A stretch of 63,869 nt of DNA, from assembly GCA_944380675.1 (NCBI GenBank), contig CALWIH010000003.1, forward strand, positions 1 to 63,869, written 5' to 3'. The position numbers were made by a program, and so were the translations under genes. Below, in pieces: positions 2,360-3,910 of the stretch; the first letter of the stretch is position 1, and the number at the start of each line of letters is the position of its first letter. This stretch comes from an uncultured Clostridia bacterium. GTDB taxonomy: Bacteria > Bacillota > Clostridia > Oscillospirales > Acutalibacteraceae. The notes below the pieces were generated by a model. It was not told the origin of the DNA and did not search any database. It saw only the letters and a list, made by a program, of their open reading frames with translations.

Positions 2360-2382
2360 AATGTGGCTGAAAAAATGAATAC

Positions 2383-2469
2383 GCGAGAGTGGCGGAATTG
2401 GCAGACGCGCTAGATTCAGGTTCTAGTGAAGGCAACTTCATGGGGGTTCAAGTCCCCCCCCTCGCACCA
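2383..2469 (+). tRNA. tRNA-Leu (anticodon CAG), copy 1
   Basis: Class II tRNA of 87 bases with encoded CCA. The anticodon stem CTAGA/TCTAG closes the loop TTCAGGT, giving CAG, which reads CUG leucine codons. A variable arm (TGAAGGCAACTTCA) and TTCAAGT T-loop are clear. In the acceptor stem GCGAGAG meets CCCTCGC, leaving an A6-C67 mismatch. The gene is identical to the copy at 3563. Confidence 0.96.
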
Positions 2470-2470
2470 G

Positions 2471-2504
2471 AAAAGACCTCTTTGCTTCGGCAAAGAGGTC
2501 TTTT
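2471..2504 (+). terminator. Terminator of tRNA-Leu copy 1
   Basis: Perfect 15-base arms AAAAGACCTCTTTGC and GCAAAGAGGTCTTTT around a TTCG loop, directly after the CCA end. Confidence 0.92.
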
Positions 2505-2710
2505 CAATGAAATCCGTCCTGCGGGACGGGTGAAATCCCGCTGCGCGGGATGAAATCGCTTCGCGGTGAAATCCGCTGCGGCGGGAGAAAGGACGGATTT
2601 CATCTATCCGTGAGCGAAGCGAACGATTTCATCCGCCGTGCGGATTTCATCCTCGCCATAGCGAGGATTTCACCCTTGCGCCGGCAAGGATTTCACTCCT
2701 TCGCAAGCGA
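2505..2710 (+). repeat. Cluster of short hairpins separated by TGAAATC/GATTTCA
   Basis: This gene-free stretch is a string of small palindromes, such as CCCGC-TGC-GCGGG, CCTCGC-CATA-GCGAGG and CCTTGC-GCCG-GCAAGG. Before about 2590 they are separated by TGAAATCC; after it by GGATTTCAT, so the whole is roughly mirror-symmetric. The same modules recur at 3015-3090, 3685-3900 and 5841-5893. The structure resembles REP-type elements rather than coding sequence. Confidence 0.8.
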
Positions 2711-3014
2711 AGGAAGCAGCTTATGATGTGGGAACCCGTTCCTCTCACCGCAAGCGCAGCGAACGATTTCATCCTTGCGCAAGCGGAGGAAGCAGCTTAT
2801 GATGTGGGAACCCGTTCCTCCCACCGTGAGCGCAGCGAACGATTTCATCCTTGCGCAAGCGGAGGAAGCAGCTTATGATGTGGAAACCCGTTCCTCTCAC
2901 CGCAAGCGCAGCGAACGATTTCATCCTTGCGCAAGCGGAGGAAGCAGCTTATGATGTGGGAACCCGTTCCTCCCACCGTGAGCGCAGCGAACGATTTCAT
3001 CCTTGCGCCAGCAA
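2711..3014 (+). repeat. Four tandem copies of a 76-bp repeat
   Basis: Units begin at 2711, 2787, 2863 and 2939, each opening with AGGAAGCAGCTTATGATGTG and ending with GATTTCATCCTTGCGC plus a variable tail. Units 1 and 3 carry CTCTCACCGCAAGCGC, units 2 and 4 CTCCCACCGTGAGCGC, so the array is really two 152-bp dimers. A diverged single unit occurs at 3798-3861. 76 is not a multiple of three, so reading frames do not carry through. Confidence 0.93.
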
Positions 3015-3103
3015 GGATATCTCCCTCGCGCCAGCGAGGATTTCACCCTTGCGCCAGCAAGGATATCTCCCTCGCGCCAGCGAGGATGCTAGGGGTTGTT
3101 TCA

Positions 3104-3466
3104 ATGGAAAACCGATTGGCAGAACTGTCTATGGATTTTGCTGTTCATGTTTTGAAAACAACGGAACATATGAAAGGGCACTATTCTCTTACGAATCAGC
3201 TGGAGCGAAGCGCTACCTCGATTGGCGCCAATATTCGCGAAGCGAAATATGCGCACAGTAAGTCTGACTTTATCGCAAAGCTGCAAATTGCTTTAAAGGA
3301 ATGTTATGAAACGGAATACTGGCTTGAACTGATGATGAGAGCTTCCCTGTGCGAAAAAAAAGAAGGCACTCTCCTTCTTCATGACTGCGGCAGCCTGCGT
3401 CGAATGTTGATTGCTTCCCTCAACACCGCCAAAGGCCGCAGCGAAACGGCGGGGGAGAAGAGATAA
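3104..3466 (+). CDS. Four-helix-bundle protein (23S rRNA IVS-protein family)
   Basis: The 120-residue helical protein shows the hallmark of the S23/IVP family: an early MDFAVHVLKTTEHMKG segment, then LTNQLERSATSIGANIREA, then FIAKLQIALKECYETEYWLELM. The family is known from intervening sequences of 23S rRNA genes, and its relative Avd works in diversity-generating retroelements; the fold binds nucleic acid as oligomers. I chose ATG 3104 because AGGGG lies 8-9 bases upstream; in-frame extension runs into repeat sequence. It sits between two identical tRNA-Leu genes and beside the hairpin array. Its codon use is more AT-rich than its neighbours, suggesting acquisition. Confidence 0.85.
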   Translation: MENRLAELSMDFAVHVLKTTEHMKGHYSLTNQLERSATSIGANIREAKYAHSKSDFIAKLQIALKECYETEYWLELMMRASLCEKKEGTLLLHDCGSLRRMLIASLNTAKGRSETAGEKR

Positions 3467-3506
3467 GCTCTTCTTCTTTCAGGAGGAATTATTTTTCTGA
3501 AACTTC

Positions 3507-3538
3507 TTGACATATCGTGGAAGATGTGATAGTATAAT
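3507..3538 (+). promoter_or_regulatory. Sigma-A promoter of tRNA-Leu copy 2
   Basis: TTGACA (3507-3512) is followed by TAGTAT at a 17-base spacer, overlapping TATAAT (3533-3538). The sequence differs from the promoter of copy 1. Confidence 0.65.
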
Positions 3539-3562
3539 TGAGTCGCTGAAAACAGAATATTC

Positions 3563-3649
3563 GCGAGAGTGGCGGAATTGGCAGACGCGCTAGATTCAGG
3601 TTCTAGTGAAGGCAACTTCATGGGGGTTCAAGTCCCCCCCCTCGCACCA
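3563..3649 (+). tRNA. tRNA-Leu (anticodon CAG), copy 2
   Basis: Identical to the gene at 2383-2469, including the acceptor-stem A6-C67 mismatch and the encoded CCA. It has its own promoter and terminator, so both copies may be expressed. Confidence 0.96.
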
Positions 3650-3650
3650 G

Positions 3651-3684
3651 AAAAGACCTCTTTGCTTCGGCAAAGAGGTCTTTT
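3651..3684 (+). terminator. Terminator of tRNA-Leu copy 2
   Basis: Same 15-base perfect stem with TTCG loop as at 2471. Confidence 0.92.
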
Positions 3685-3910
3685 CAATGAAATCCGTCCT
3701 GCGGGACGGGTGAAATCCCGCTGCGCGGGATGAAATCGCTTCGCGGTGAAATCCGCTGCGGCGGGAGAAAGGACGGATTTCATCCTTGCGCAAGCGGAGG
3801 AAGCAACTTATGATGTGGGAACCCGTTCCTCTCACCGTGAGCGCAGCGAACGATTTCATCCTCGCCATAGCGAGGATTTCACCCTTGCGTAAGCAAGGAT
3901 TTTACCCTCC
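3685..3910 (+). repeat. Hairpin/GATTTCA module cluster with one 76-bp-type unit
   Basis: Gene-free. The first 100 bases belong to repeat copy B. A single, slightly diverged copy of the 76-bp unit starts at 3798 (AGGAAGCAACTTATGATGTG). Two more hairpin modules (CCTCGC-CATA-GCGAGG and CCCTTGC-GTAA-GCAAGG) end the cluster. Confidence 0.8.

Follow-up and report, generated by a model that had tools for sequence, protein, structure and literature searches.

The window analyzed here is a whole stretch of 63,869 nucleotides (nt), contig CALWIH010000003.1 of assembly GCA_944380675.1 from an uncultured Clostridia bacterium of the Acutalibacteraceae. The locus under study lies at 2382-3905 and 5843-5891, where hairpin arrays and one gene for an intervening-sequence protein (IVP; family PF05635) accompany tRNA genes. 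ARAGORN called tRNA-Leu(CAG) twice, at 2383-2469 and 3563-3649, both on the + strand and identical in sequence. Copy 1, which encodes its CCA end (RF00005, 48.6 bits), is preceded by a promoter-like TTGACA-17-TATTCT at 2331-2359 (+) and copy 2 by TTGACA-17-TAGTAT at 3507-3535 (+), each with 2 mismatches of 12. An earlier note, made from the letters of this DNA alone, had described two identical tRNA-Leu units, and these were borne out: 2382-2604 and 3562-3784 are exactly identical over 223 bp at an offset of 1180, with 97% identity if the units are extended to 241 nt.

Directly 3' of the first CCA stands a terminator-like palindrome with a 16-bp perfect stem (2470-2505, +; here called T), and its second copy occupies 3650-3685 (+). 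A two-armed array follows. The left arm (2505-2603, +) comprises a Gut-1 RNA with four TGAAATC linkers and is closed by ATGAAATCCGTCCT (2507-2520) and AGGACGGATTTCAT (2590-2603); the right arm (2621-3087, +) carries GATTTCA linkers and small hairpins. The arrays of the window have the linker as TGAAATC in their first part and as GATTTCA in their second. Within the right arm, Tandem Repeats Finder detected hairpins of 23 bp at 3001-3087 and a tandem unit of 76 bp at 2689-3012 (+; 4.3 copies, 93%). The whole window has 32 copies of GATTTCA, where 7.2 would be expected, a count equalled in 0 of 100 shuffles, and 21 of the 32 fall inside 2508-3881. The hairpins match the Rfam family Gut-1 (RF01706, gathering score 50 bits) with 70 bits at 2505-2577 and 3685-3757 and 55 bits at 2621-2698 (-); a further match at 2989-3071 (-; 38 bits) is below the gathering score. 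The IVP gene (3104-3466, +; 120 amino acids) matches PF05635 (E 7.9e-26) and TIGR02436, "four helix bundle protein" (E 1.9e-28). Its GC content is 46.6%, compared with 62.4% for the whole window, and it is the single PF05635 match found in the source genome, a draft that is 92.9% complete. The hairpins, the tandem array and the AT-richer four-helix-bundle gene of the earlier note are therefore all present. Its placement of the hairpins between the tRNA copies holds for the array at 2505-3087 and fails as a boundary, because the second tRNA-Leu(CAG) has its own array (3685-3905, +), extending to about 3905 without an IVP gene. A Gut-1 match at 3848-3920 (-) in this solo array scores 32.7 bits, below the gathering score. 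The 76-bp right-arm unit is present in 4.3 copies in the IVP-bearing array and in about one copy in the solo array of the window. A short solo array remnant at 5843-5891 (no strand assigned) adjoins a gene for glycerophosphodiester phosphodiesterase (GDPD; 5061-5810, -); its Gut-1 match, 24.8 bits over 5808-5875, is below the gathering score, and the array at the corresponding place is longer in G005, a close genome of the same genus.

Relatives of the IVP protein with solved structures (PDB), by means of the subfamily profile, are 2RLD (2.6e-42) and 2GSC (3.8e-15), the molecule name of the latter being XCC0516. Avd of the diversity-generating retroelements, which have a reverse transcriptase and template and variable repeats close by, is akin to PF05635. 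No match to the window's IVP protein was detected in the PADLOC (defence) or PHROGs (phage) libraries. PMC4990558 describes XCC0516 as a ring of five four-helix bundles. A tree of IVP proteins retained 141 near rows; of the 72 distant rows just 16 remained, since many loci were not in + orientation or did not pass the filter. It carried a long-branch warning, and no inference was drawn from it.

The association with tRNA genes was counted in two collections of PF05635 loci. The first comprised regions of up to 20 kb around 75 matches in relatives, with the window as the 76th locus and tRNAs called by ARAGORN. A tRNA or tmRNA gene lay on the same strand within 700 nt upstream in 37 of these 76 loci. 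By placement, 49 tRNAs were upstream on the same strand, compared with 1 upstream on the opposite strand, 2 downstream on the same strand and 2 downstream on the opposite strand; the background in the remaining parts of the fetched regions was 0.013 tRNAs per 700 bp. The second, separate collection, the best 80 of at least 581 matches, gave an upstream same-strand tRNA at 49 of 80 loci, with 77 tRNAs in this placement versus 0, 0 and 0 in the others and a background of 0.029 per 700 bp. Pooled, 86 of 156 rows had an upstream same-strand tRNA or tmRNA within 700 nt, or 85 of 155 distinct PF05635 genes, since rows L104 and L148 are one site; L107 and L117 overlap on one contig and are different genes. 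The left flank was shorter than 300 nt in 9 of the 156 rows. The targets span 15 tRNA isotypes plus tmRNA, and an encoded CCA ends 84 of the 86 upstream tRNAs. The module thus evidently lies on the same strand, downstream, and directly after the encoded CCA of many different tRNA genes and of tmRNA.

No tRNA was found in the flanks (up to 1.5 kb) of 72 distant PF05635 loci, namely, 12 in three metagenome-assembled genomes (MAGs) labelled Akkermansia, 30 across the window's phylum and 30 in the phylum of G079; 4 of the 72 also occur among the 156 as rows lacking a tRNA. Adjacency to tRNA was accordingly rejected as a trait of all PF05635 genes. Likewise, 0 of 30 HicA-toxin loci had any flanking tRNA, these being 30 of the 37 matches in the same relatives; when PF05635 loci were fetched in the same way, a tRNA was present in 14 of 30. 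Four loci from MAGs labelled Akkermansia or Akkermansiaceae (L167, L169, L184 and L214) have PF05635 proteins 50 to 55% identical to that of the window and repeat arrays of their own, with no tRNA within 700 nt upstream. At 58 sites lacking a tRNA, the neighbouring gene was on the same strand in 41, on the opposite strand in 16 and unclear in 1, a noisy count in which shadow open reading frames (ORFs) compete.

The tRNA was more than 340 nt from the IVP gene in 16 rows. Ten of these (one being the duplicate row L148) hold an exact copy of 16 to 23 nt of the tRNA 3' end, 185 to 269 nt before the IVP start, which is the usual module distance; no such copy was found in the remaining six, the window included. 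The copies at the usual distance indicate that the module stands directly behind a CCA end even when another insertion intervenes. A second type of small insertion, ending with the 16- to 23-nt tRNA 3'-end copy, was observed between tRNA and module in L096, L103, L104, L136, L158, L174, L183, L204 and L206, in some cases with an inverted T-arm-like sequence at its opposite end, as judged by eye.

The recurring order of the module is CCA, T, left linkers, right linkers, often a promoter, and the IVP gene. Hairpins stand between the linkers in some modules, and others consist of plain 7-nt repeats. The linkers vary among modules (AATATAACT, CATCATT, ACTTCAC, ATATCAT, TGAATTG and more in place of GATTTCA), and the left and right linkers are reverse complements of each other. 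Four or more exact repeats were present in 73 arrays at tRNAs; the layouts most often seen among these were 4+4 linkers (21 arrays) and 3+4 (13), and every left linker preceded every right linker in 56. A promoter-like site with at most 2 mismatches was found before the IVP gene in 40% of 80 modules and in 0.75% of shuffles. The sequence TTTGTC in the core of T, tried as a mark of the element, was present at 19 of 70 module tRNAs versus 2 of 33 other tRNAs and was set aside as suggestive only. In the hairpin-less modules L094, L098, L107 and L201, the order after CCA is X' X R X R' (by eye); the 3' arm of T is repeated mid-array, where alternative pairing with the 5' arm is possible, and this order may be a switch. 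In L182, L086 and L091, the module stands at the 3' end of rlmD (L182 is RlmD by NCBIfam; L086 and L091 are alike at the C terminus), and T consists of the gene's last codons and their inverted copy, as if it had been formed from host sequence.

Linker type follows IVP type. A repeated 6-mer together with a usable protein was available in 129 of 156 rows. Among these, a linker 6-mer was common to 247 of 287 IVP pairs at least 75% identical (one pair being the L104/L148 duplicate) and to 392 of 6485 pairs below 55% identity (bins summed). The Mantel correlation between linker and IVP similarity was 0.51 (120 rows, near-copies removed), equalled in 0 of 2000 permutations. The tRNA isotype, in contrast, was common to only 12 of 145 close IVP pairs behind tRNAs. 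Palindrome, array and IVP gene are thus, by these comparisons, inherited as one unit of which the tRNA is not a part. Identity was also profiled along the locus: 91 close pairs of different isotypes (55 loci) had mean identities of 0.53 upstream, 0.60 in the tRNA, 0.72 in T (taken as the first 45 nt 3' of CCA), 0.70 in the array, 0.76 in the gene and 0.55 downstream, the values for 300 sampled far pairs being 0.52, 0.55, 0.60, 0.49, 0.60 and 0.54. At base level, likeness starts at CCA in L187/L190 (Tyr/Ala), L154/L156 (Ser/Val) and L094/L105 (both Leu, from different families) and ends at, or a few bases from, the IVP stop codon; this codon is the end of the compared copies. The core of T is not alike in a fourth pair compared in this way, L116/L118 (Glu/Gly).

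Downstream of the IVP gene, within 5 kb (some contigs end sooner), the final 16 nt of the tRNA were found again in just 3 of 86 rows, the window, L096 and L170, versus 0 of 1530 control comparisons. Duplication of an attachment site was rejected on this count. With the isotype so rarely shared, the suggestion of the earlier note that the element carries its own tRNA 3' region is not supported as a rule. Its suggestion that the element is one inserting behind tRNA genes has strong support in the placement counts, the linker and isotype comparison, the module edges and the empty sites described below. Small homologous genes were seen 3' of different IVP types (48 to 54% identical) at different tRNAs (L066/L197, L096/L205, L116/L204 and L145/L213). 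At 21 of 82 tRNA sites with enough flank, a downstream ORF that has a ribosome site starts close to or at the stop codon of the IVP gene, often with a 4-nt overlap. These small genes look like exchangeable cargo.

Sites without the module were compared within the genus. In G003, module L105 lies behind tRNA-Leu(TAA); in G002 and G004, the syntenic tRNA-Leu(TAA) is followed directly by an ordinary terminator, and a terminator of this type starts 3 nt past the IVP stop in G003. In local alignment, the G003 post-stop terminator scored 30 against G002 and against G004 (reached in 1 of 2000 shuffles each and equalled by 0 and 1, respectively, of 154 other post-stop sequences); its score with G001 was 40 (0 of 2000 and 0 of 154). 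Inspection by eye of the G003 junctions, with G002 and G004 for comparison, showed no target-site duplication of the kind left by transposons with terminal inverted repeats or their miniature derivatives, a single case. The L105 module is read as an insertion between CCA and the host terminator without visible duplication, so that in this genus the module evidently stands between CCA and a host-type terminator. G001 was rejected as a third syntenic empty site, its upstream flank being on contig C237 without the tRNA and tRNA-Leu(TAA) with its terminator on C32. On contig C92 of the source genome, syntenic to L105, tRNA-Leu(TAA) is followed by T and a short remnant, with no IVP. In another pair of genomes, G050 and G074, similarity stops exactly at the CCA of tRNA-Trp.

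The window locus itself has a counterpart in G003 (L125, on contig C62), where the gene order is an Orn/Lys/Arg-decarboxylase-family gene, DUF6472, tRNA, flavodoxin (PF12641, 8.3e-50), tRNA, GDPD and a MarR-like gene, with flanks as in the window. The tRNA-Leu(CAG) pair is at the same place with the flavodoxin gene between its members and with neither hairpins nor IVP. The flavodoxin gene where the window has the module indicates that this spot receives different genes. The tandem tRNA pair was therefore rejected as part of the element; it is, judging by this synteny, older than the module and incidental to it. The earlier note had held that the association would be due to chance if relatives had the tRNA pair without protein or hairpins and the protein elsewhere without them. 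The pair does occur alone in G003, and the sole PF05635 gene of that genome is again behind a tRNA-Leu (L105), after a palindrome and repeats of another type, indicating that the association of tRNA, array and IVP is not due to chance.

In consensus folds of two array subfamilies (9 sequences each), compensatory changes were seen in 19 of 61 pairs for the first and in 19 of 45 for the second. Linkers of one arm pair with those of the other in the first fold, the second has mainly small hairpins, and the array may adopt more than one fold. The IVP protein is under purifying selection, with a median dN/dS of 0.048 (64 of 168 pairs with defined dS). IVP and Gut-1 co-occurred more often than expected over 79 genomes (25/9/10/35; Fisher P of 9e-6), with PF05635 present in 34 of them, the source genome included. 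Among Gut-1 arrays, solo ones are commoner than those with an IVP gene nearby.

Taken together, the array and the IVP gene probably form one small mobile, or at least spreading, module, the "IVP tail module", which spreads among tRNA 3' ends. The module occurs in many gut bacteria, and the window is one case. It consists, from 5' to 3', of T, hairpins on a constant linker of 7 to 8 nt or plain 7-nt repeats, often a promoter, and the IVP gene, and the left half of the array carries the reverse complement of the linker of the right half. The comparisons show a discrete, co-inherited unit with fixed orientation and sharp edges behind many different tRNA genes in different species, from which we infer that it spreads. 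The IVP ring (a solved homologue is a pentamer) would bind the linker or hairpin array of its own type, as RNA or DNA; the earlier note had also suggested that the protein may bind the hairpins, an idea that fits the tight co-inheritance of linker type and IVP type. Binding would bring the array to tRNA 3' ends, and the joining would be done by a host enzyme or one acting in trans. T would act as the terminator of the tRNA, which would stay functional, making the insertion harmless. In the window, the module and a solo copy would occupy both members of the older tandem tRNA-Leu(CAG) pair, and the identical 223 bp would reflect a tail copied between the tRNAs, by gene conversion or a second insertion, together with tRNA sequence that was already identical.

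Several observations weigh against this reading. No upstream tRNA was found within 700 nt at 70 of the 155 distinct sites, some of which are at contig ends and others behind protein genes. Most of the genomes are metagenome-assembled drafts. No recombinase, transposase or reverse transcriptase was recognized in the module, and no movement was observed. The placement between CCA and terminator rests on two syntenic empty sites, G002 and G004; the terminator match to these copies is modest, and it is genus-wide in type, the tRNA-Gly terminator of G005 scoring 42. G074 has other foreign-looking DNA after its tRNA. G054 and G078, which diverge 5 nt beyond the CCA of tRNA-Tyr, were rejected as a clean empty site because the occupied allele also has a second array and other DNA. 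The dN/dS of the IVP genes is approximate because the median dS of 1.63 is near saturation. The IVP gene of the window has no promoter-like site (best, 5 mismatches) and may be a weak or ageing copy.

The array alone might instead be mobile, like REP/BIME repeats or miniature inverted-repeat transposable elements (MITEs), with its enzyme elsewhere and the IVP gene as a passenger of some arrays. The numbers of arrays speak for this account: the 79 genomes had at least 382 Gut-1 matches (up to 51 candidates were scored per genome, and one array can yield two matches) compared with 76 PF05635 matches. When the best Gut-1 locus was taken from each of 30 genomes, 16 of the 30 had a tRNA or tmRNA within 450 nt and only 4 had an IVP gene within 900 nt, which also weighs against the module as a unit and indicates that the array does not need the gene in cis. 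The source genome has solo arrays at 3650-3905, at 5843-5891 and on contig C66. A passenger, however, would not be expected to track linker type or to experience purifying selection, nor would its stop codon be expected to mark the end of the unit in independent pairs, and we consider the array-alone account possible and rather unlikely. Strict orientation, exact abutment of CCA and the terminator-like T would also suit a fixed host arrangement of ancestral origin, in which processing or regulation of the tRNA is the task of array and IVP. The same tRNA lacks the module in sister genomes, which already disfavours such an arrangement, the isotype is common to only 12 of 145 close pairs, and PF05635 is in only 34 of 79 genomes; an immobile arrangement of this kind is very improbable.

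A conventional integrative element, attached at a tRNA gene and bringing along a duplicate of the tRNA 3' end, would account for the full tRNA copy on the far side in the window and for the 16-nt copies of the tmRNA end downstream in L096 and L170. The other 83 of 86 rows lack such a copy within 5 kb downstream (some contigs are shorter), no integrase was recognized in a module of this size, and the site is the CCA end of any tRNA rather than one tRNA, so that this explanation is scarcely plausible. Draft assemblies, mostly from metagenomes, with repeats and tRNAs at contig ends in some loci, could have suggested a chance neighbourhood or an assembly artefact. The orientation counts of 49 versus 1, 2 and 2 and of 77 versus 0, 0 and 0 in two collections, the controls of 0/30 and 0/72 and the same architecture in scores of assemblies leave it almost no credibility; as a general account it is already refuted, and the window's own two units may still be affected by assembly.

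Returning to a module of array and IVP gene that spreads among tRNA 3' ends, we tentatively suggest, as a doubtful possibility, a route through RNA. The module RNA, from T to the IVP stop, would be joined to the 3'-OH of the CCA of a mature tRNA or tmRNA. A reverse transcriptase acting in trans, for which the IVP ring would be the RNA chaperone, would then copy it back into the tRNA gene. Such a route would explain why the boundary falls exactly at CCA, whatever the isotype and in tmRNA as well, why only the sense orientation occurs, why the module ends on the right at the stop codon and why PF05635 elements are also known inside rRNA genes, and IVP elements would then be parasites of the RNAs surrounding the ribosome. 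A DNA route with selection against other placements may be the alternative. Since the protein type tracks the linker type, both what the protein does and how the module inserts become directly testable. The module would be a compact, widespread unit of about 0.6 kb that lands behind tRNA genes without a recognizable enzyme of its own, and it would give a shared context to two orphans, the Gut-1 RNA, whose role is unexplained, and PF05635, known mostly from rRNA intervening sequences (IVSs) and of unexplained function.

The nearest known system by protein family is the 23S rRNA IVS with its IVP (S23) gene, known in Coxiella, Leptospira and others (PMC4990558). The two have in common a PF05635 protein, a small insertion at a stable-RNA gene, an inverted-repeat RNA and a sporadic distribution with presumed horizontal spread. 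The present modules differ in lying behind the CCA of tRNA and tmRNA genes and not within rRNA; no rRNA match was found in positions 1-8000 of the window or in the 20 relatives' loci, out of 29, that were given to Rfam. Here, moreover, the palindrome is a linker or hairpin array upstream of the gene, with linker type tracking protein type, and in the window both arms are upstream, so that the gene is not in a stem-loop as in the rRNA IVS. It is the protein family that links the module to the rRNA IVS; the module lacks the location in rRNA by which such elements are defined. A further trait of the rRNA IVS is its removal from the precursor RNA by RNase III. Several distant PF05635 genes do lie in the loop between inverted repeats. 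Such repeats bracket the gene in L257, L275, L255, L256, L294, L300, L302, L254, L247 and L252 as tandem units of about 7 bp (e.g., CTAGTAA, AGTCAGG and GGACAAT), placing it in the loop of a long stem, a layout that PF05635 elements outside rRNA may generally have. IVP is also reported from 16S and 23S insertions of CPR bacteria in PMC11270868, in whose text "tRNA" had no match. Kinship with the heptamer repeats of cyanobacteria was considered and dropped, no IVP being found in the excerpted text of PMC4476775. Gut-1 is listed in PMC2864571 as a noncoding RNA candidate found only in environmental (human gut) sequences. The hairpins of the window resemble it above the gathering score of RF01706; unlike Gut-1 as listed, they belong to a larger array, of which the Gut-1 part is one arm and which goes with PF05635 genes and the 3' ends of tRNAs. 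No publication describing PF05635 genes or Gut-1 behind tRNA genes was found in the open-licence PMC literature, by which absence is not proven.

Among mobile elements, a tRNA-site integrative element would have a far-side copy of the tRNA 3' end, which was found in 3 of 86 rows, the window among them. The REP/BIME palindromes with their RAYT transposases consist of many solo repeats and few protein-coding copies, with repeat type tied to protein type, and in these respects they resemble the module. They differ in that no HUH (Y1) transposase was recognized in the module and in that the module targets tRNA 3' ends; its protein, a small four-helix bundle, has no known active site, and the compared modules, spanning CCA to the IVP stop, leave no room inside for a Y1 transposase, the module only being considered. 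For the tRNA-targeting retrotransposons of Dictyostelium and yeast, a tRNA gene is a safe place to land whatever its isotype, and their orientation there is fixed. The module is, unlike these, bacterial, abuts CCA itself and has no recognized reverse transcriptase or integrase; what it shares with them is the acceptance of any isotype and the fixed orientation.

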